Positions 51,607 through 61,457 of a DNA stretch of 64,000 bases are shown one piece after another (positions within the stretch are counted from its first letter, which is position 1; every line of letters begins with the position of its first letter). Source of the DNA: Apophysomyces variabilis (taxonomy: Eukaryota > Mucoromycota > Mucoromycetes > Mucorales > Mucoraceae). The position numbers and the translations under genes were made by a program. The stretch covers positions 62,001-126,000 of the forward strand of contig MZZL01000394.1 of assembly GCA_002749535.1 (NCBI GenBank), in the 5' to 3' direction. The notes beneath the pieces were generated by a model. It saw only the letters and a list, made by a program, of their open reading frames with translations. It had not been told where the DNA came from and ran no database searches.

Positions 51607-52214
51607 GAGGTTTTCTTTTTTTTTTACTTGATTATGGAAAAAGTGTTCCCCTTAATGTTTTCAGGGGATAAAGAGATTCGAAGAGAAAAGAAGAAAGGTG
51701 GAAAAAGATACTTCGTCCAAAGGATGCAACGACGAACAGCAAGACGAAGCTAAACGACTCCGTCTCCCCCTTAATCTATAGATGCCTCCGAGCTCAGGGA
51801 ACTGCGTTTAAGGTATACTTGCAGACTATATTTAATTTACTTCCTTTTCTTTGTTCTCTTCTTGATAACGAACTGCTGCCGTAATGTTATGTTTGCTTTC
51901 TTTCAAATGTCTGAACCATGTAAAGAACTACAAGTGAGTTGGGGAGAGGAACATCGACAAAAGTTGTCATATGCATGTGTCCTGGAAAATGACAGCATCC
52001 TATGGAGACTGGCTCGTCTGTGGCCCAAACAAAAATAGCGGGGTTCTCCCAAAGACTGATAGAGGCAAAATATTTATCCTTATGTCACATTGTTGCCTAA
52101 GAAGCTTTGGTATCTGAACTCTAAAACTCCTCTGTGACTCAAATAAAGCGTTAAAATTGTTTCTCAGTCTCAGAGTACCTGTTTCTCTTACCTGAGGCAT
52201 AGGTCCTGATAACT
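51607..52214. other. Intergenic, 3' side of the Fanzor-like gene
   Basis: No protein gene seen. This side would hold a guide-RNA region if the Fanzor-like gene is active. Confidence 0.45.
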
Positions 52215-52231
52215 CCTGTCATAGCGACAGG
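52215..52231 (-). other. Hairpin downstream of the Fanzor-like gene
   Basis: CCTGTC-ATAGC-GACAGG forms a perfect 6-bp stem with a 5-nt loop, about 150 nt past the stop codon on the transcribed strand. TnpB-family nucleases take their guide RNA from sequence just 3' of the gene, so this is a candidate structural part. A 6-bp stem alone is weak evidence. Confidence 0.3.
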
Positions 52232-52382
52232 TCCCGGTTCTCTCAACCTTCATTGTCATAAGAACTATTATCGCAAGGGCAGAACTACTACTTACTCTTC
52301 ACAGAGCTTCCGAGAAGAATTCACGCACCTTTAACGTCAGGACACATGATGAATACGCAATAATTATTTGATAGAAGCCGAC

Positions 52383-55300
52383 TTACCAAAAATTGGTGGC
52401 GCCGGGAACAAACGGTTTTCCAGCCGAGAATATGCTGGGGTCAAATGGGGTCAACGTGCTTCTGTTTGCTGATAGGATGTTACTGGCAGATGCCAGACCT
52501 ATTGCTACAGCCGCTTGAACATCTCTGTTTTGCGTGGCATGGCCGGACTGGTACGCCGGACAGCAGGGGTTTACGCATTGTGAGGCACCGTTTACTCTCA
52601 CAGTCTTCCACTGTCTGCTCTTTCTTCGCCGTGCTTTAGCTCGTTCAACTCGTTCAAAACAGTAGACGCATAACTGGGAACTTCTGTGTTCATTGGTCAT
52701 GGATACAGGCACATATCGGCGATGACGTTTACGGAGCCATTTTCCCCCTCGTTTTAAATGTCCTTTCAGACGTAGACCGACTCCAGTTCCTTGAGTGCCG
52801 ATGGCCATAATCGGTAAAGCCTTTTGGCGCCCATCGGTCTGTGTCGTCGCTGCAGCCTTAATAAACTTGCGCTCTTGGGCGGCCACTTGATCATAGATGC
52901 GATCCGTATACAGTTTTTGTGTGCGCTTTTCATGCTCTGCCCGATTCGAATGATAGAAAGCTCGCAATTCTCTTCGGCAGTTCCTCTTTACCTACATGTA
53001 TGTTATTATGAGTTAGAGGCAGAAGGAAGCCGAAGGATAATACCGCTTGCGACTCTAAAACTTGCTCCACCGTGGTTGCTGAGGCGGATGATCTTTTCGA
53101 TAGCGTCTTCTCTGCACTGATAACCGCAGGGTTATTCTAAAGACAAAGTGAGTCAACCTAAAACTTAGCGGCTATCTTTATCATACCTTTTTCCTCCTCT
53201 CTCTTTTTTTGCGAAAACTCCTACATAAGGTTTTCTCCTCCAGATAACCAGCTGTGATTCTCATCGGCTTAGGAAGCGTAGACATTTCTTTAGGAATAGA
53301 CACAGGCGTCTGCCCGTCACCAAATTGGCGATTATACAGGTCGAAATGTAGACGAGCGCGTTCCATAGTGACCGGCACCGTTGTCGCCAAAGTCCTCAAG
53401 CCATAGTCCGTTCCGCCAAAAGTAATAGTCTTCTTGGGATCCTGCTTGACTTCTTGATGCAGCTCTGAGATGTCCAGAAACTCTGTATTGGCTTCGCAAC
53501 CTGGGCGATTCCAACTCGCAACTTTACATAGCTTAGTCTCCTGTTCTTGTTCATCATCTTTTGGTTTCGTCTCTTTGTTCGTTTGTTGCTTCTTCAGAAT
53601 ATCCAGCTGCTATAGTTTCGTTTATTTTCTTGTTTAGCTAATGCATATGATATTCTTCACTTACCTTCTGATATATGTATCGCAGTCTTCGTTGATCCGC
53701 GAGCTGTGACCTTATCTTGCTTAGTTCAGATTGGCTCTTTGCGCGCTCGAGTTTAGCCGCCTTTAAATCTTTATATATGTCGGTCTGTTTCTGTTTCGCT
53801 CTGGAATCATAGATATCGAATTTCTCACTCTTACGCTTATCGCGGACTTTTCTTCGAGCTACGTCCTTGCTTCTCCGATAACTCTCCATTCGGCTTTCGA
53901 CGACTTCCTCCCTCTGCCGCAACGCGTTTTTTATCTGCTTTTCAGCCGACTCCAGAGCTTTCACCCTCTGTTTTGCATCTTCTAATGAGCATGTAATATT
54001 GGCGATGTCTAAGCCGGATTTATCTTCAAATTGACTACTTGCGCTATCTGCACGCTTTCCTTTCGACTTTTTCTTTCTTTCTTCGTAGTGAGAAGTATCT
54101 ATAACCCTCCCTTTTTTTACATCACCGTCAATCACGGCCATTTGATGAGGTGTAATGGTGATTCGCCACCGCGGTTCCAAACCTCGAGTATTGCAAATAT
54201 GCTTAACTTTTTCTTGATCAAAGAAGGAACCAATCACAGCAGATTTGTTCGTACGAGCTTCTCTGATATTGTCGATTGTGCTTCCATCTTCTTTGTATAG
54301 ATTGAACTTTGCAGAATTGGAACCAAACATCTCATACATGGACGCCGCATCGAGAGGTAGAGCATGGATTGAGGCAGGGCTGATAGTTGGGCAGATATTT
54401 GCAGTGAACTTGGAATATCCTGTCGCATGAAGAATCGCATTTGATAACAAAACAAATCGCAAACGAAGAGATATTGCGCTGCTTAATCGACCTTTCGGCA
54501 CGTATGGTCTAAGTGCGTTTGCAAGTTTCACGACGATATCTATCTCGACCTTCTGGAGCTCATCGTTGTCGTTCCATATATCCGACACATCACTAGCTTG
54601 TACGTTCCCGTCGATGTCTGTTGACAGCAGTAGTTTCTTGGTGATAGCTTGGATTCTTATCAACCTTCTTCTGCTGGGTTCTTTCTTCAGTGTCTTTATC
54701 TCAACTTCTTCCAACTCGTCCTGTGCCTCTTCGATCGCTGTTTCTATCGTCTCTTCGATTCCTTCATCATCCATGACACTGATATCGGCTGAAATAGCTA
54801 ACTTGTCCATATCGCCTCTTGCCTAATTGACGTTTGTTCAGCTCATATATCAACGTTATGACAAGTAATTCTCACCTCTTCATCTTTTTGATGTGGCTGG
54901 TTATCAGCCTTTTTAGGCCTGTACTTTTCCTTTGCCTGTTTCTCCAGTCGTCTGATTGCTTCGACGCATGACTTCTTCCGCTGCAAAAGATTGGCTCTTT
55001 GATTCCCATCCATTTCTATTCCCAAGCGCTTCTCCAGCCGTCGCAAACTTTTGCGTTCTTGTTTTAGTCTACCTTTTATCTTGCGTCTGCGCCATTCTTT
55101 TTTTCTCCGCATCGTTCTGGAGCTCTCTTCCCGCTGCTTTTCCTTTTCTTGTAGTTTTTTCTCGGTAATTTCCTGAATCTTCTTTTCTCGTTCAGAGGCA
55201 AGATTGATCCTGAGCAGGATACGAAGCAAGTGATTAATTGATTTGTGGAATAATCCGCCTGCCCACATGTTCTGCAGGTCTGTGGCATACTGCTTCAACT

Positions 55301-56366
55301 GGAAGTGCATGACGGTGCTTAAGCCTGCAGGTGGTTTTGGCAAGTCCTTCAAGCCTTGGTGCTGTAAGGAAGACCAGAAAGATTTTCCTTGAGCTTTGTA
55401 GCTTTGTCTTCCAAAATAGTCTGAATGAAGGAACTGTAGATGTGCTTCGGTAAAGAGGTTTAGGAATTCGTCATTGTGTTTTTTCGGCAAAGCTTTTACA
55501 TAATTCTTGATGTTATCAGGCATTGGGGCCACAGCTATTGCCAATTCTGAGTTCAAAAGTTCTGGATGTCGAATCCACTCTTCATGTATGACATCCAAAA
55601 CATTAAATGTCTTGCCATCTTGTTGATAGTGCGCTTGCTTTGACTCTGCATCCAAGACTACCGAGCCGGATGCGTACTTGAGCATGGTTGCATGTACTGC
55701 GGTTCCCAGCTCAGAAGCGTAGTTGGTGGCCTGTTCGGATGTGATAGCAATGGTCTCAAGAAATGTCTGCTTCACTTGATTGTCAAGGTCTTCTCGTAAG
55801 ATTTTTGATAATCTAACGGAACATGTTCGTATTATTTCTTTTTCCTCTTTACTGTCGTCATTCACAGTAACTTCTTTGCTGGAACCAGCTTCTTCTACTT
55901 CTCCGTGCTCCTCAAGTCTCGCCCGTGCTTCCGCCACGGCGTCATTGAAATGAGCTGCAGCGTAATCTCTCCAAAGCTTGCCGATTGATGCTGGCTCAGG
56001 ATAGTGAAAACAGAGGGTTCTACGAATCGTTCCCCGTGTTACATTTATTGAGTCATCGGCTTGCTCGAGTGAAGTTCTTGGGACACGATCCGCTTTCTCT
56101 AAACGCGTTCGTAGCTCTTGCAGGATTTTGTTGGTTTTTGCTTGTTTTTCAACTTCTGACTGAAATCTCGCTTTCTTTGCCGTGTTTTTCCTTGGTTTAT
56201 CCTCAAGTTCTTTTGAAATGATTGTAACTAACTGGTTCTGAAACACGTCGTGCAAGGCTTCAATCGCCTTGTCCAAGGATATATTTGATTGAATTACTCT
56301 CTTTCTTTTGCGTTTGTTTTCTCGTATTTGCGGGTGCGGTACTTGCATGGCTGACAAACGGAACAT
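52383..56366 (-). CDS. Fanzor-like RNA-guided nuclease (eukaryotic TnpB)
   Basis: Five exons (54876-56366, 53665-54822, 53187-53609, a 31-codon exon, last exon to 52383), all phase 0, predict about 1,257 aa. The first ~880 residues are helical and highly charged (HFQLKQYATDLQNMWAGGLF; KKEWRRRKIKGRLKQERKSL). RuvC-I is TFGGTDYGLRTLATT (Asp about 951). A RuvC-II-like block IMAIGTQGTGVGLRLKGH precedes VSMTNEHRSSQLCVYC, where Glu about 1156 sits in the NE(H/Y)R(S/T)S motif used as the alternate glutamate in Fanzors. A zinc finger follows (CVYC...CVNPCC), then RuvC-III NRDVQAAVAIG (Asp about 1212). All three acidic residues and the finger are kept and no stop is seen, so it may be active. Its N-terminus is longer than in typical Fanzors. 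Introns suggest long residence in the genome. Confidence 0.82.
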
Positions 56367-57267
56367 GTTTTGTTAGTTCAGTTTATGTACATCTCATTCA
56401 ACGGGAATTCACCTCAAACAACGAAAATATTGTTATCATAAGAGAAAGAGCAGTGTAACAATTTCAGTTGTCAATTGGTGAAGTCAGTTCGGCATGATGA
56501 TCTTGTAACTAGTCTATTTTTAGATGAGCAACTCTGACTGGATAAACATTTGAACAAAGAAGTTTCAGGTCTTTTATGTATAGTCATTTGAGGAGGAAAC
56601 TGAAAATGCATAAAAGCCAAGGCACAGGACAGCAGAAAATGTTATAATCATTCGTAGGATCAGCTGCAAATGAACCAACAATTAATCTCTGGTCGACTCC
56701 AGCTACGAACTTTCTTCTAATAGTATCAGGTTATGGTATTCAAGACCATGATTAACCTTCATGACTCTGACATTGTATTCAGATCATTGAGTTAGAGTAC
56801 CGGTGCCTGTCTGAGATATAATTACCAAATCATTAACACATGAACTTGTCTGATTCATCCCTGCTGTATTATCTCACGATCGTAGTTCTTATCATATCTA
56901 TTCAGATATGGAATATACCAAGTATTGTACTAAAGTATCAACCATATTTTAGCCTGGTTATCACTCTACTGTTGTCCATTCTATCAGAATTCGACAGAAG
57001 AGATGATTTCCCTCTGGATCTCACTCCGCTTGAGTCTCAGGACTGAGGGAATACCCACTCGGTATTTCCACTGTGCTTTTCCTATTTGTCTGCGTGTTTC
57101 TAACTTTTATTTGCAGACTGGGATTCAAGTTTTTGCGGAATCCAAAAAAAGCTTTTGCATGATTGGGTGAAAATATTTGCGGTCAGACTACTCTTCTTTG
57201 CGTACAGTCGTGTCCATGTTCACTATTTAGAGATAGTTTATTTCAAACCACAGCAAGACGAGTTTAC
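56367..57267. other. Intergenic, 5' side of the Fanzor-like gene
   Basis: AT-rich; no gene recognised. I found no clear inverted repeat matching the 3' side. Confidence 0.45.
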
Positions 57268-57597
57268 TTAAAGAAGTGGTTCTCTATTTTTTTTTCTAAC
57301 GAAAAAGCTCTCAGCGTGTCTGATCCATGCTTGATAGTCTGAGCGGTTTACTTTTCGCGCTTCTTGAACAATACGTTCTTGAAGGTTATAGTCACCTTGT
57401 AAGGGCTCCCTTCTTACCCTAGCCTTCACTTTGGCCCAAAACTCTTCTATTGGGTTGAGAAAGGGAGAGTAGAGAGGAAGATAGAGACCTTTGTATCCTC
57501 TTTCTTCGACCAACTGATTAACCTTGACTGGTGTATGGATGGGTACATTATCCATGACAAGATAATAACCGTTCATTCCGTGGCAATCCAATCTTTT
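57268..57597 (-). pseudogene. Tc1/mariner (IS630-type) transposase C-terminal fragment
   Basis: Encodes the last part of a DDE_3 transposase: MNGYYLVMDNVPIHTPVKVN holds the second catalytic Asp, YLPLYSPFLNPIEEFWAKVK the third acidic residue (Glu). It ends VRKKNREPLL. The N-terminal DNA-binding part and the first Asp are absent from this frame; an acceptor-like TATTAG precedes it. Minus-strand fragments that look coding continue to about 57880 but are broken. Confidence 0.78.
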
Positions 57598-58505
57598 GTG
57601 ATTGCCTAATAGACAAAGTTTAAAATATAATAGAAGAAAAGAAGAGCATAACTACATGCAGGGAAAATAAAAGTGGAATATAAGGCAATACAATTGAGCA
57701 GAATCAGAACTGGGGTACATTGCCCTGACAGCTTCTAATACCATAACTGACAGAAACGGATATGATATCGTCAATGACGTACAGAAACGAACGAAGAGGG
57801 TTTATTTCCTCTACAGATGTTCCATTCTGTTCAAGACCTTCTATCAGACTGAGTCCATTTTTACTCTTGGGAGGATTGTTGTCTTATCTCTGAATTGTTG
57901 TCATCTATAAGACATCCATCGATTTTCTTATCCATGACTGTGATTCTTGGTTTCAGTAATCACGTACTATTTAAAAGCGAAAGGACAACACCTTTTCAAT
58001 TCTTTGGCTCTGTTCTCCAAAAACGTCCCCGGTATGTACTTTGCATTGATCATATGTACAGAATAACTGATGTCCCTATTCTGTATCCTTTAGCCTGCAT
58101 GGCCTCTGTCCCGAACCACCTTGGTTGTGCGAGTAAGCTCCCTGCACTCCACTCGGTAAGTGAAAAAGAAATCTTGTCTGTTTATGCACAGTGTCATTCA
58201 TTATCTTCTGCTTCCAAGTCCTCGCCAGGTGTTGCATCGCTTCAAGTCCTCTGCAGTGCGTTACATTATACTGGTCCCTACCTTTGGGTAGGATTACCCT
58301 TCGGGGTAAGTAAAAAAAAAGTCGTCAAGCTATCCTTCCATTTACTAACCATGAACGTTCTTTTACGCTGCTCGAATGAATTTTGTGTCCACGAAAGGAC
58401 CAAGTTGAGGTAAATAAAATATATTTCCCGCATAATCCATTTACTAGTGACGCATATTTATATCCCTTTTGGCGCAAACTTGATCCTTGCATGGACGCAA
58501 AATTT
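57598..58505. other. Transposon-derived debris
   Basis: Contains broken open frames on both strands, including a 172-codon plus-strand frame (57895-58413) opening with TTG and lacking any family motif. Its 3' neighbour on the plus strand is an inverted copy of a retroelement coding tail (next entry). Confidence 0.4.
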
Positions 58506-58563
58506 ATTGTATGTCGTACCTAACACAATCCCCGTTGACTCCACTCGGACATCGGATGTGGTA
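58506..58563 (+). repeat. 58-bp inverted duplicate, left copy
   Basis: Matches 59519-59576 in reverse complement with a single mismatch (CATCGG versus CATCCG). On this strand it would encode YVVPNTIPVDSTRTSDVV, the same tail that ends the minus-strand protein at 59516-60178. It flanks the gag-like gene. Confidence 0.9.
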
Positions 58564-58631
58564 ATTTCTTCGTATCGCCAGAGAAAATCGTGTTGACAAT
58601 GTGTGTGCTTGCATGTACTTGGTGGATTGGT

Positions 58632-59405
58632 TTAAAATAAAATTTTTCTGTTACCTCGGAATTGGAAATTTCGTCCTCTGTTTTGGCTGCCTCTACCATA
58701 GGAATATCCTCCTCTGCGATAGTTTGTGAACGTGGATTTCCCAATAATTGCAGCTTCATATCTAGCATGGTCGATTTTTTCAACGGCTTCCTCAGAGAAA
58801 GCCAATTTCTTTTCCCCGCCCAGTTCTTCTTCAAGATGTTTGATTATTTCTGGCAACTTGAGAGCTTTAACTGCCAGTTGCTTTGCCTCTCTGTCCATTT
58901 GTTTGGCGGTGGCATAGCTAAAGATGGCCAACCTACGTATCTTCTCGGTGGTTCTAAGGAGGTCTGCTTCATCGGACGGATCGCCTCCCCTTTCTTGTAT
59001 GAACTGTAGTTCTTCAAATACTTCTGTGGCGGCTCTTGCGGCCGCTCGTAGTCTGTCTGCATCTTTGTATTTGGAAGTGACAACCTGATAGGTGTCCACA
59101 TTGAACTTTTTAAGCTGAGGGATGAAACCCTTGTTAATAGTCTCTTGTCTTGTCCAGTCTCCGCCTTCGTACGTTCTGATATCACGGACATATCGTTTGA
59201 GATTTGTGGCGAAGTCAGACTGGGAAGTTTGCTCCATCTCTTCGTGGATTTCTTCTGGCAAAATGGCTCTATTTCCATGTTCTGTTCTTGCCTGCTCTTC
59301 CAACCTGAATTTTCTTGCAAATTCGGCAGACAGTAATTGAAATTGTTCTTCTGAGATTGGGATATTATGGATTTGATTGGTTTCCACATCTTGGATACTT
59401 GTCAT
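58632..59405 (-). CDS. Gag-like retroelement protein
   Basis: 257 aa, no introns. Mostly helical and charged (MTSIQDVETNQIHNIPISEE; DFATNLKRYVRDIRTYEGGD; EVFEELQFIQERGGDPSDEA), ending in an Arg/Gly/Tyr-rich RNA-binding tail (YRRGGYSYGRGSQNRGRNFQ). This layout is like the first protein of DIRS-type or related fungal retroelements. No reverse transcriptase or recombinase lies in the window next to it, so the element is incomplete or a solo unit. Confidence 0.55.
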   Translation of the reverse strand: MTSIQDVETNQIHNIPISEEQFQLLSAEFARKFRLEEQARTEHGNRAILPEEIHEEMEQTSQSDFATNLKRYVRDIRTYEGGDWTRQETINKGFIPQLKKFNVDTYQVVTSKYKDADRLRAAARAATEVFEELQFIQERGGDPSDEADLLRTTEKIRRLAIFSYATAKQMDREAKQLAVKALKLPEIIKHLEEELGGEKKLAFSEEAVEKIDHARYEAAIIGKSTFTNYRRGGYSYGRGSQNRGRNFQFRGNRKILF

Positions 59406-59515
59406 AGTTTACCCACGTTGCGCGGCTAGAAAGAATCTAGAGTAGTAGGATAGGAAATATTTTTTATTTTTATTGGAAGTTAAAACTACGAATAAAGTAG
59501 CGCGGCCAGAAGGGT

Positions 59516-60178
59516 CTATACCACATCGGATGTCCGAGTGGAGTCAACGGGGATTGTGTTAGGTACGACATACAATCGCTTTTTGCACGGTATATACACG
59601 TACTGAAAGTGCGATGAAGTACTTTCCGGCGCTTGGAAAAACTGGCTGGCAAGAAGGGCAGGCTTAGTGGCAGACTTTAGTTCTGGCGGAGTTGGTGTCC
59701 GCTGAGAGGTAGCAGGTGGCGATGGCGAATATTCACTGGGCTGTGGGGCAGAAGCAGCATCTTCTTTGGGAGATGTGGGAGGTGTTTGAGCTGGTGGTGT
59801 GGGCTTTGGCTTGACTATTGTCTTTGGCCATGAGGAAACGGTGGGAATGGGACGTGGCTCGGGTTTCACTGGTGCTATTTGTGTAGGCACTGCGCGGGAT
59901 TGACTAGTCTGTGTGGAGATGGGAACGATCGACTCTTTAAATATCGAGTGAATAGTGAGGCGTGGTTTGCATGGGCAGTGGGAGGGGCGGCTTTTAAGTT
60001 CCTTGACACGGGCTGTAAGGGCTTCGACTTGTTTTTGTTGATGGGCAAATGCTTTTTTGTAGAATTCGCGGTCTATTAGGGCCTTGCGTAACTGTTCTCG
60101 AAGCTTTTCGGCCTCTGTGGGCGGTGGTGCTCTGAAGATCCAAGCTTGGTCCTTGGTCTGGCTCAGGCATGCGAGCAT
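59516..60178 (-). CDS. Coiled-coil, proline-rich retroelement-associated protein
   Basis: 220 aa from ATG at 60178. An N-terminal coiled coil (EAEKLREQLRKALIDREFYK, QQKQVEALTARVKEL) is followed by a Pro/Ser/Thr-rich region (KPKPTPPAQTPPTSPKEDAA) and a short ordered tail (FQYVYIPCKKRLYVVPNTIP). It lies 110 bp upstream of the gag-like gene on the same strand, so the two look like one element. A second ATG in another frame at about 60206 reads MSRKNNNRQHARMPEPDQ; a frameshift near the start is possible. Confidence 0.5.
   Translation of the reverse strand: MLACLSQTKDQAWIFRAPPPTEAEKLREQLRKALIDREFYKKAFAHQQKQVEALTARVKELKSRPSHCPCKPRLTIHSIFKESIVPISTQTSQSRAVPTQIAPVKPEPRPIPTVSSWPKTIVKPKPTPPAQTPPTSPKEDAASAPQPSEYSPSPPATSQRTPTPPELKSATKPALLASQFFQAPESTSSHFQYVYIPCKKRLYVVPNTIPVDSTRTSDVV
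59519..59576 (-). repeat. 58-bp inverted duplicate, right copy
   Basis: Reverse complement of 58506-58563 with one mismatch; forms the 3' end of the reading frame 59516-60178. Confidence 0.9.
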
Positions 60179-61457
60179 GCTGACGGTTGTTGTTCTTACG
60201 ACTCATGGCTTGCTTTCTTTTGTAACAACACAAGACGCGGACGAGGGGCTAGCGTAAAAAATTGTTCAATAAACAGTATAACGCCATCAAGCTTACTGTC
60301 TTAGCTTCTTTCCTTCGTTCTAACAGAATAGGGTAATGTTTATCTCTGTAACGAGCATTCAGTTTTATAAAAAGATAGGAAGGTGCTGTTGTCAATGACT
60401 CTGGCTACTCTAAGTACCAGAAGATTATCGGTTTATATGGTGTACATCTCAGTATAGTTCATAGAGTATTTAACAAAGAAATAATTAAGCAGAGAAGGAA
60501 GAAATGTTACAATATGGTATTAACACAGATTTTCGAGCATTTTGTTGTAAAGCCATTGGTATCATGAAATCAAACTGCTAGTCATACATAGTGCAAGTCA
60601 TGTAGAAATCCCGAAAGGATGTAGGCACATTTGCCGTGTTTAGTCATTGGTTGTTTCTACAACACCACGCCTAGAAACAAGGAGATTTGAGTTCTCGCAC
60701 TGTTTCTGATGGTAATGGTATAGGCTGTCTGCTGCCCTGATGTCCCAGATACAAAATTCGCCCTCTGAAACATTGGTATCTGCTAATGGACGTGAGAGAG
60801 GTTGTACCAAGAAAACTGTGCTTATCTACCACAACTCTTGTTGTTCTTGAAATGCTTTTATGTCCAGGATTTGATGGAATTAATAGATCCTTTCAGTACA
60901 GAGAGGGCCAATTTTGCTGTAAACAATCAACTTCCGCTGCCCTTTTTCATGTCTGTAACCGTTGTTAGTGTGGAGATGCATAAAATAATAAAATGCTGAC
61001 AGATCCGGCAAAACGTTTTGGCTTGTGACCTTCTCATGCTCCCCTGATTGTCCATGAGCATTCAGACTTAATCAGTATCCTTTGTCCTGGCGGGCCGTTT
61101 TTTATGCATTCAGGCACAAAAAAGAAGTAGGGTAAACAATGTATAGCTGGTAACTCAATCCTTCCTTGTCAAAAGGTTTAGGACTTTGGGGTACAGTCAA
61201 AGTTTTGAAGGTCGCGTGAAACTCTACCAACGGTTTTTTCCTCCTTTATCAGCTTAAGCACAGGAAGCCAGCGCATCAGCAGATTTGCAATTCTTAAACT
61301 TCGTCTTGACCGCTATAATATGGGCTCCACAACCAATACATCGAACGATGACGGTGAACTGGGTTCCAGTCCATCGACAGATTCCACACCAGGTACATTC
61401 TTCCTTCTTTTTCTCACGCTTTATGAGATCAACATGCTCACCACGACGTAACCACGT
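60179..61457. other. Intergenic, possible zinc-rich minus-strand frame
   Basis: Mostly featureless. A minus-strand frame at 61254-61529 has paired cysteines (CTWCGICRW...RCIGCGAHII) and ends SADALASCA; it overlaps the first exon of the Ino4-like gene, so at most one of the two frames is coding there. Confidence 0.4.

Follow-up and report, generated by a model that had tools for sequence, protein, structure and literature searches.

A probably working Fanzor-type nuclease of unusual length on a recently mobile element of Apophysomyces variabilis

Fanzors carried in transposons are ordinary in Mucorales, which have many of them. Most Fanzor1 proteins are described as 600-700 amino acids (aa) long (PMC11423790), with lengths of up to ~800 residues given by Yoon et al. 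2023 (PMC10711439). The locus of SpuFz1, the Fanzor1 of Spizellomyces punctatus, is described as ~2.1 kb long with inverted repeats (PMC10432273), and in PpFz1, the Fanzor1 of Parasitella parasitica, an insert of ~100 residues inside RuvC is described as binding cyclophilin (PMC11423790). In Mucor circinelloides, a member of the Mucorales, MCi-2 is described as 11 copies that are near-identical over a 6-kb 3' Fanzor-coding region, with no terminal inverted repeat (TIR), with target site duplications (TSDs) of 11-12 bp with ATAATTNNNN(N), and with a partial Crypton transposase in one subfamily, MCi-2A (Bao and Jurka, PMC3627910). Here we analyze a stretch of 64,000 nucleotides of the Apophysomyces variabilis genome (contig MZZL01000394.1, positions 62,001 to 126,000; hereafter the window), which carries on its minus strand, at 56366-52383, a Fanzor-type gene lying on an element that we call family A. 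In the explanation that we favor, the gene encodes an intact RuvC nuclease of Fanzor type that belongs to a divergent branch in Mucoromycota, its carrier is a non-autonomous element that was active recently, and RNA-guided maintenance or spread of that element is proposed; we put the probability of this explanation at roughly 0.66.

SpuFz1 is the best PDB match by profile. It and the encoded protein share the shifted glutamate, a long zinc finger whose second half recalls the CTNPNC of SpuFz1, and the NRD of RuvC-III. They differ in size: the SpuFz1 chain has ~600 residues, whereas the family A protein reaches 1,257 aa. A long coil is predicted in it before RuvC-I, unlike the PpFz1 insert, which lies inside RuvC. 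The family A element also lacks a recognized TIR, unlike the SpuFz1 locus, and none of its 12 flank pairs shows a TSD, unlike MCi-2. MCi-2 may belong to the same branch, a comparison made by description.

The rebuilt gene has five exons and no internal stop codon; its four introns of 53, 55, 50 and 52 nt are all GT..AG and all in phase 0. Exon 1 (54876..56366, residues 1-497) is predicted to be mostly helical and is highly charged, and exon 2 (53665..54822, residues 498-883) aligns in its second half with the start of a Mortierella homologue. Exon 3 (53187..53609, residues 884-1024) holds RuvC-I, GTDYGL, with the codon of D951 at 53408-53406. After the short exon 4 (53044..53136, residues 1025-1055), exon 5 (52383..52991, residues 1056-1257 and the stop) encodes the shifted glutamate E1156 (52691-52689), the zinc finger (52670-52560) and the RuvC-III aspartate D1212 (52523-52521). 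The motifs TDYGLRT, NEHRSS and NRDVQAA start at residues 950, 1155 and 1210, respectively, and the zinc finger cysteines stand in a CxxC at 1163 and in CVNPCC at 1194. The initial annotation had described an open five-exon gene with these four features, and the rebuilt model bears it out. The protein also fits the Fanzor pattern D-X(125,275)-[TS]-[TS]-X-X-C4 finger-X(5,50)-RD (Bao and Jurka 2013, PMC3627910) at D951, S1159 S1160 QL C1163, C1166, C1194, C1199 and R1211 D1212. Likewise, its glutamate stands six residues before the zinc finger (E1156-HRSSQL-C1163), as described for Fanzors (Yoon et al. 2023, PMC10711439).

The mobile unit is larger than the gene itself and spans 4,959 bp (52109..57067, minus strand). 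A search of the genome found exon 1, exon 5 and the same element DNA at 12 places each, and a count of related copies gave 12 near-identical family A elements with differing flanks at 12/12 sites. The nine other copies covered in full are 99.80-100% identical to the window copy. All ten copies covered in full encode 1,257 residues, with 0-2 differences, and keep the acidic triad; the other two were covered in part. Comparison across copies places the 5' element end at 57067, where it reads AAATACCGAGTGGGTATT; the end sequence AAATACCGAGTGGGTATTC (57049..57067) is a palindrome with arms AATACC and GGTATT, and AAATACC is found at 10 of the 12 copies, L052 and L037 being different. The 3' end at 52109 reads CAGATACC, and the end sequence compared across copies is GAGTTCAGATACC (52109..52121); the base that follows is G at 11 of the 12 sites and A in the window. 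A repeat search of the element found no convincing TIR. As judged by these near-identical copies, family A is a very young burst that was recently mobile. The earlier reading of the gene as apparently intact, with the shifted glutamate and perhaps still active, is supported: the protein is intact and probably functional. A repeat resembling Tc1/mariner, with many partial copies in the genome, occupies 57070-60279 of the window and ends right at the 5' end of the element; it is itself interrupted by another repeat at ~58509-60249.

A second family, B, bears on whether the gene is correctly assembled and kept by selection. Its exon 1 and its exon 5 were each found at 15 places, which coincide only in part, and its assembled copy encodes 1,287 aa with the acidic triad kept. 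Exon junctions fall at corresponding residues, 494, 867, 1057 and 1088 in family B versus 497, 883, 1024 and 1055 in family A, and protein identity between the families is 38, 44, 50, 29 and 59% for exons 1 to 5. In the four large exons 1, 2, 3 and 5, for which separate figures were obtained, the proportion of nonsynonymous differences (pN) is 0.42, 0.39, 0.34 and 0.29, whereas that of synonymous differences (pS) is saturated at 0.83-0.89. These values show purifying selection on the protein between the two families at the level of sequence comparison, and since family B has corresponding junctions, with saturated pS against unsaturated pN, the five-exon model is not a product of chance. Among eight family B loci, exon 1 lies within a 510-aa open frame in 7 and exon 2 within a 387-aa frame in 7; the defects are a 2-nt deletion in exon 2 of L041 and a stop in exon 1 of L048.

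The same comparison speaks to the long N-terminal region. It had been suggested that this region might be a fused second domain; another possibility is that its first two exons belong to a separate gene. Neither idea found support: Pfam gave no domain above cut-off in exons 1, 2, 3 or 5 or in the homologue P0001, family B conserves the region together with the same introns, and a DPG-type Fanzor of this genome (L088) has, by eye, a coil-like stretch of its own ahead of RuvC-I. Because family B shares the four intron positions and the exon conservation, the N-terminal 880 residues are part of this gene. An AlphaFold model of exon 1 was too poor to read (predicted local distance difference test, pLDDT, 56.6); aligning the exon pieces of family B with P0001 misplaced exons 1 and 2, and the result was not used for folding. 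In the model of another homologue, P0007, helices at 89-134 and 137-187 have a pLDDT of ~87-92; transferred by alignment, they point to a predicted long coiled coil at about residues 776-883 (53665..53988), before RuvC-I.

Could the nuclease be a mere passenger, with another element's enzyme spreading the element, the Fanzor adding nothing now and the youth of the copies the sole reason why they are open? Derivatives that lack a working gene after deletion have multiplied too: seven old ones (L077-L083) share one common internal deletion (element 876/4378), and their own reading frames are broken. (When built from the parent element, the joined frame of this deletion is open.) Furthermore, with so little difference among the family A copies, the fact that they are open carries little weight by itself. 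However, families A and B stand at synonymous saturation and yet are open in most copies and conserved, and the acidic triad is kept in relatives where covered, with two exceptions, P0002 and L087. We regard a passenger role as quite improbable. Those exceptions, in which residues are lost (GTNYGL and NRG in P0002, NRE in L087), are also what would favor a catalytically dead, domesticated relative kept for binding only. That possibility is very remote, as the triad is kept in 10/10 full family A copies and in the assembled family B copy, and the gene is multicopy and mobile. Judged by its sequence, the family A protein is a divergent and very long nuclease of Fanzor type that probably works.

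The wider branch was examined by a profile search. The first two protein searches had P0001 as their sole match; the profile search, limited to proteins of ~190-610 residues, found ten relatives, including proteins of Apophysomyces sp. BC1015 and BC1021, of Mortierella alpina and of metagenome type, and nine were taken further, P0010 being left out. RuvC-I reads DYG in families A and B, L089, P0003, P0004, P0006 and P0007, and GTDYGL is found in 6 of 7 aligned sequences covering the motif, P0002 being the exception, as well as in L089, which represents a further family of this genome. The shifted glutamate is kept in 8/8 aligned relatives covering it. RuvC-III is altered in P0002 and in L087, which belongs to the family of L089. 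On these alignments the branch reaches Mortierella, and its traits are a length of ~1,260-1,290 aa in families A and B, DYG in RuvC-I and the shifted glutamate. The RuvC/TNB part of the Mortierella homologue is predicted to be SpuFz1-like, with SpuFz1 as its best Foldseek match, giving the predicted fold of the Fanzor1/TnpB superfamily. For the clustering of D951, E1156 and D1212 that the initial annotation expected, this homologue's fold is an indirect test.

Several results tell against the favored explanation. DPG in RuvC-I is described as near exclusive, though not absolute, in Fanzors (Yoon et al. 2023, PMC10711439), and family A has DYG, so we file its protein as Fanzor-like, outside the DPG signature. 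The homologue model is of middling confidence (pLDDT 68.4; predicted template modeling score, pTM, 0.52). PF07282 (Cas12f1-like_TNB) gives no match at E <= 0.1 for exon 5 of family A or B or for P0001. At E <= 1, PF07282 matches 7 of 12 branch sequences, with a best value of 0.0011. With 150 of the 164 candidates scored, its listed matches mark 73 places in the genome, none of which is among the 12 family A and 15 family B exon-5 places; because 0/27 appear among the listed matches, surveys resting on PF07282 would miss both families. NCBIfam likewise gave no relevant match for the branch.

The same genome holds Fanzors with DPG (L003, L005 and L088), which have the shifted glutamate, the CxxC finger and RD likewise but differ from families A and B in reading DPG in place of DYG. 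Seven canonical A10 pieces (loci L001-L004, L006, L008 and L007) match PF07282; L088, 30% identical to family A, scores 24.6 bits, just under the cut-off, and the L003 piece had no PDB match. L088 and about nine like places form a third multicopy Fanzor family, mostly with frames of 274-299 residues, several of them equal-scoring. By eye, a coil-like stretch stands ahead of RuvC-I in L088 too. Because the same genome thus holds a DPG family with such a stretch, descent from Fanzor1 is suggested, and the simplest reading of the sequences is that DYG arose inside Fanzor1. A bacterial TnpB clade with DPhiG and the shifted glutamate is described (Yoon et al. 2023, PMC10711439); an independent origin from such a TnpB was set aside, given that L088 combines DPG with the coil-like stretch. 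Searches for viral and prokaryotic relatives gave 32 and 19 pattern matches, respectively, none upheld by tblastn. Among the papers listed for Fanzor, Mucor, Crypton and TnpB, we found no description of the DYG branch by title or start of abstract, which is weak evidence of absence.

We next consider the 3' noncoding end of the element (52257-52109), a candidate source of guide RNA. The best conserved 60 nt of the deletion derivatives correspond to 52188..52247 of the window (minus strand), which holds the hairpin CCTGTC-GCTAT-GACAGG and forms the core of the guide-RNA (wRNA) candidate. Identity there is 0.914, a level reached in 14/5,000 column shuffles, and the 60 nt form a near-identical stretch free of gaps. 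Computed without gaps, identity in the derivatives is 0.910 in the block, 0.807 and 0.798 in the coding remnants, 0.832 in the 3' untranslated region (UTR) and 0.848 in the 5' noncoding remnant. Since the coding remnants stand at 0.80-0.81 and the 5' noncoding remnant at 0.85, the contrast is moderate. An RNA search model was built from family A and nine derivatives or old copies, with family B excluded. In 14 sources at E <= 10 it gave six matches: one is the window, the other five lie in the 3' UTR of family B loci (5/5 tested), and eight canonical Fanzor loci gave none. Family B carries the same hairpin letters, GTCGCTATGAC, which occur 50 times in the genome versus 8 for the reversed control. 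For 36 of these sites, one of 50 chosen Fanzor places is found on the same strand, the site falling between 400 bp inside that place and 1.2 kb beyond it; another site belongs to C112, a family B copy in which exon 5 has no match. Because most are copies of two young families, they amount to few independent cases. The 13 other sites lie away from the chosen Fanzor places, where ~8 would be expected from the reversed control, and might include stand-alone RNA copies.

This role for the block also has evidence against it. The 5' noncoding remnant is itself somewhat conserved, the RNA model matches to family B are weak (E 0.59-1.5), the stem pairs changed on both sides are 2/6, both in family B alone, and Rfam has no match for the 3' RNA. 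With a z of -0.98 the RNA is no more stable than its shuffles, so stability provides no argument for a guide RNA. Possible splice sites stand at the edges of the block as well, and it could be part of the mRNA, as an exon that extends the coding or the untranslated region. P0001 (EC973_007782, Apophysomyces ossiformis, 1,285 aa), the best protein match with two substitutions over the shared part, is an NCBI model of another copy that begins at the second methionine of the 1,257-aa model. It uses a GTAAGT donor overlapping the exon-5 stop codon, three more introns and 34 added residues, splicing through the block, and we reproduced it exactly with the introns GTAAGT..AAAG, GTAAGT..GAAG and GTAAGA..TGAG. 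The corresponding possible fifth intron of the window lies at 52329..52386 (minus strand). However, derivatives with broken reading frames are where the block is best preserved, the family B hairpin letters come with compensatory stem changes, and when family B is spliced similarly by eye, a stop falls within the hairpin or directly behind it. An mRNA-only role is in our judgment rather unlikely, and the 3' hairpin block common to families A and B is, with moderate confidence from sequence conservation, a guide-RNA candidate. By eye, the family B stop codon looks alike, with GT..AG / GTGCGT in a comparable order. Alternative splicing at 52386-52329 could switch the C-terminus; either the 1,257-aa stop or the P0001-type extension may be the true one.

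Cryptons encode a tyrosine recombinase and integrate via a short shared core without a TSD. The terminal GTTATAC and GTATAAC of family B form inverted arms around a short core, and its left flanks end in ATGT in 8 of 14 cases, the others having related letters before ACT; the family A arms, GATACC/GGTATT, are weaker. NDC10_II matches the 5' region of two family B copies at one and the same position, and the matching stretch is present in 8/8 copies compared. Together the element ends and this decayed Crypton recombinase suggest mobility by a tyrosine recombinase. Some observations run counter to it. With hmmscan, the family B relic passed the cut-off in one of four copies tried (the L048 piece, 33.2 versus 26.3 bits), and Pfam gave no match on four short pieces of it; family A has no NDC10_II match, and no empty insertion site was seen. 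With family A lacking NDC10_II and family B holding a broken relic, neither is a Crypton in the above sense, though the ends are compatible with one; family A may be moved like a Crypton without being an autonomous one. The genome holds 41 NDC10_II matches, several with long open frames, and one of these could move family A in trans.

By rule, Helitrons end in CTRR. Family B has a small hairpin, CCTATTATAGG, 14 nt before its 3' terminus, followed in most copies by CTR, which is Helitron-like, and family A has no recombinase relic; a mover other than a Crypton-type tyrosine recombinase, for instance a Helitron-like enzyme or a serine recombinase, is a possibility of real weight, though on balance not the one we favor. 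The inverted arms around a short core, the degenerate motif in the family B 5' flank, the decayed relic in family B, the NDC10_II matches of the genome and the partial Crypton transposase described for MCi-2A argue against such a mover and for a Crypton-type enzyme.

The guide RNA, cleavage, target motif and recombinase that we infer would act together as follows. A structured RNA would arise from the 3' end of the element, its 3' tail reading into the flanking DNA, and would guide the Fanzor protein to the unoccupied insertion site beside a short target motif, predicted to be AAATACC with the adjoining target starting in G. Repair of the cut from the element-bearing copy would then keep or spread the element, while its movement would rely on a Crypton-type tyrosine recombinase acting in trans. 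A fuller picture, of Mucoromycota-specific giant DYG Fanzors with a long coiled coil, overlooked by the usual domain model and riding tyrosine-recombinase elements, with a guide RNA that is processed from the spliced 3' end and serves both full and gene-less copies, is one that we offer only tentatively and that is doubtful as a whole.

Less ordinary here are the length, the DYG, the fact that the domain model nearly misses the protein, and the presence of gene-less relatives that have the 3' block in common with a young family. Families A and B are about twice the usual Fanzor1 length, a near-fixed catalytic motif is changed in them, and the TNB model of surveys misses both. As to the role that Fanzors play for their elements in eukaryotes, a young burst, together with old gene-less derivatives that keep the 3' block, makes the guide RNA, the target motif and the role in spread testable in one system.
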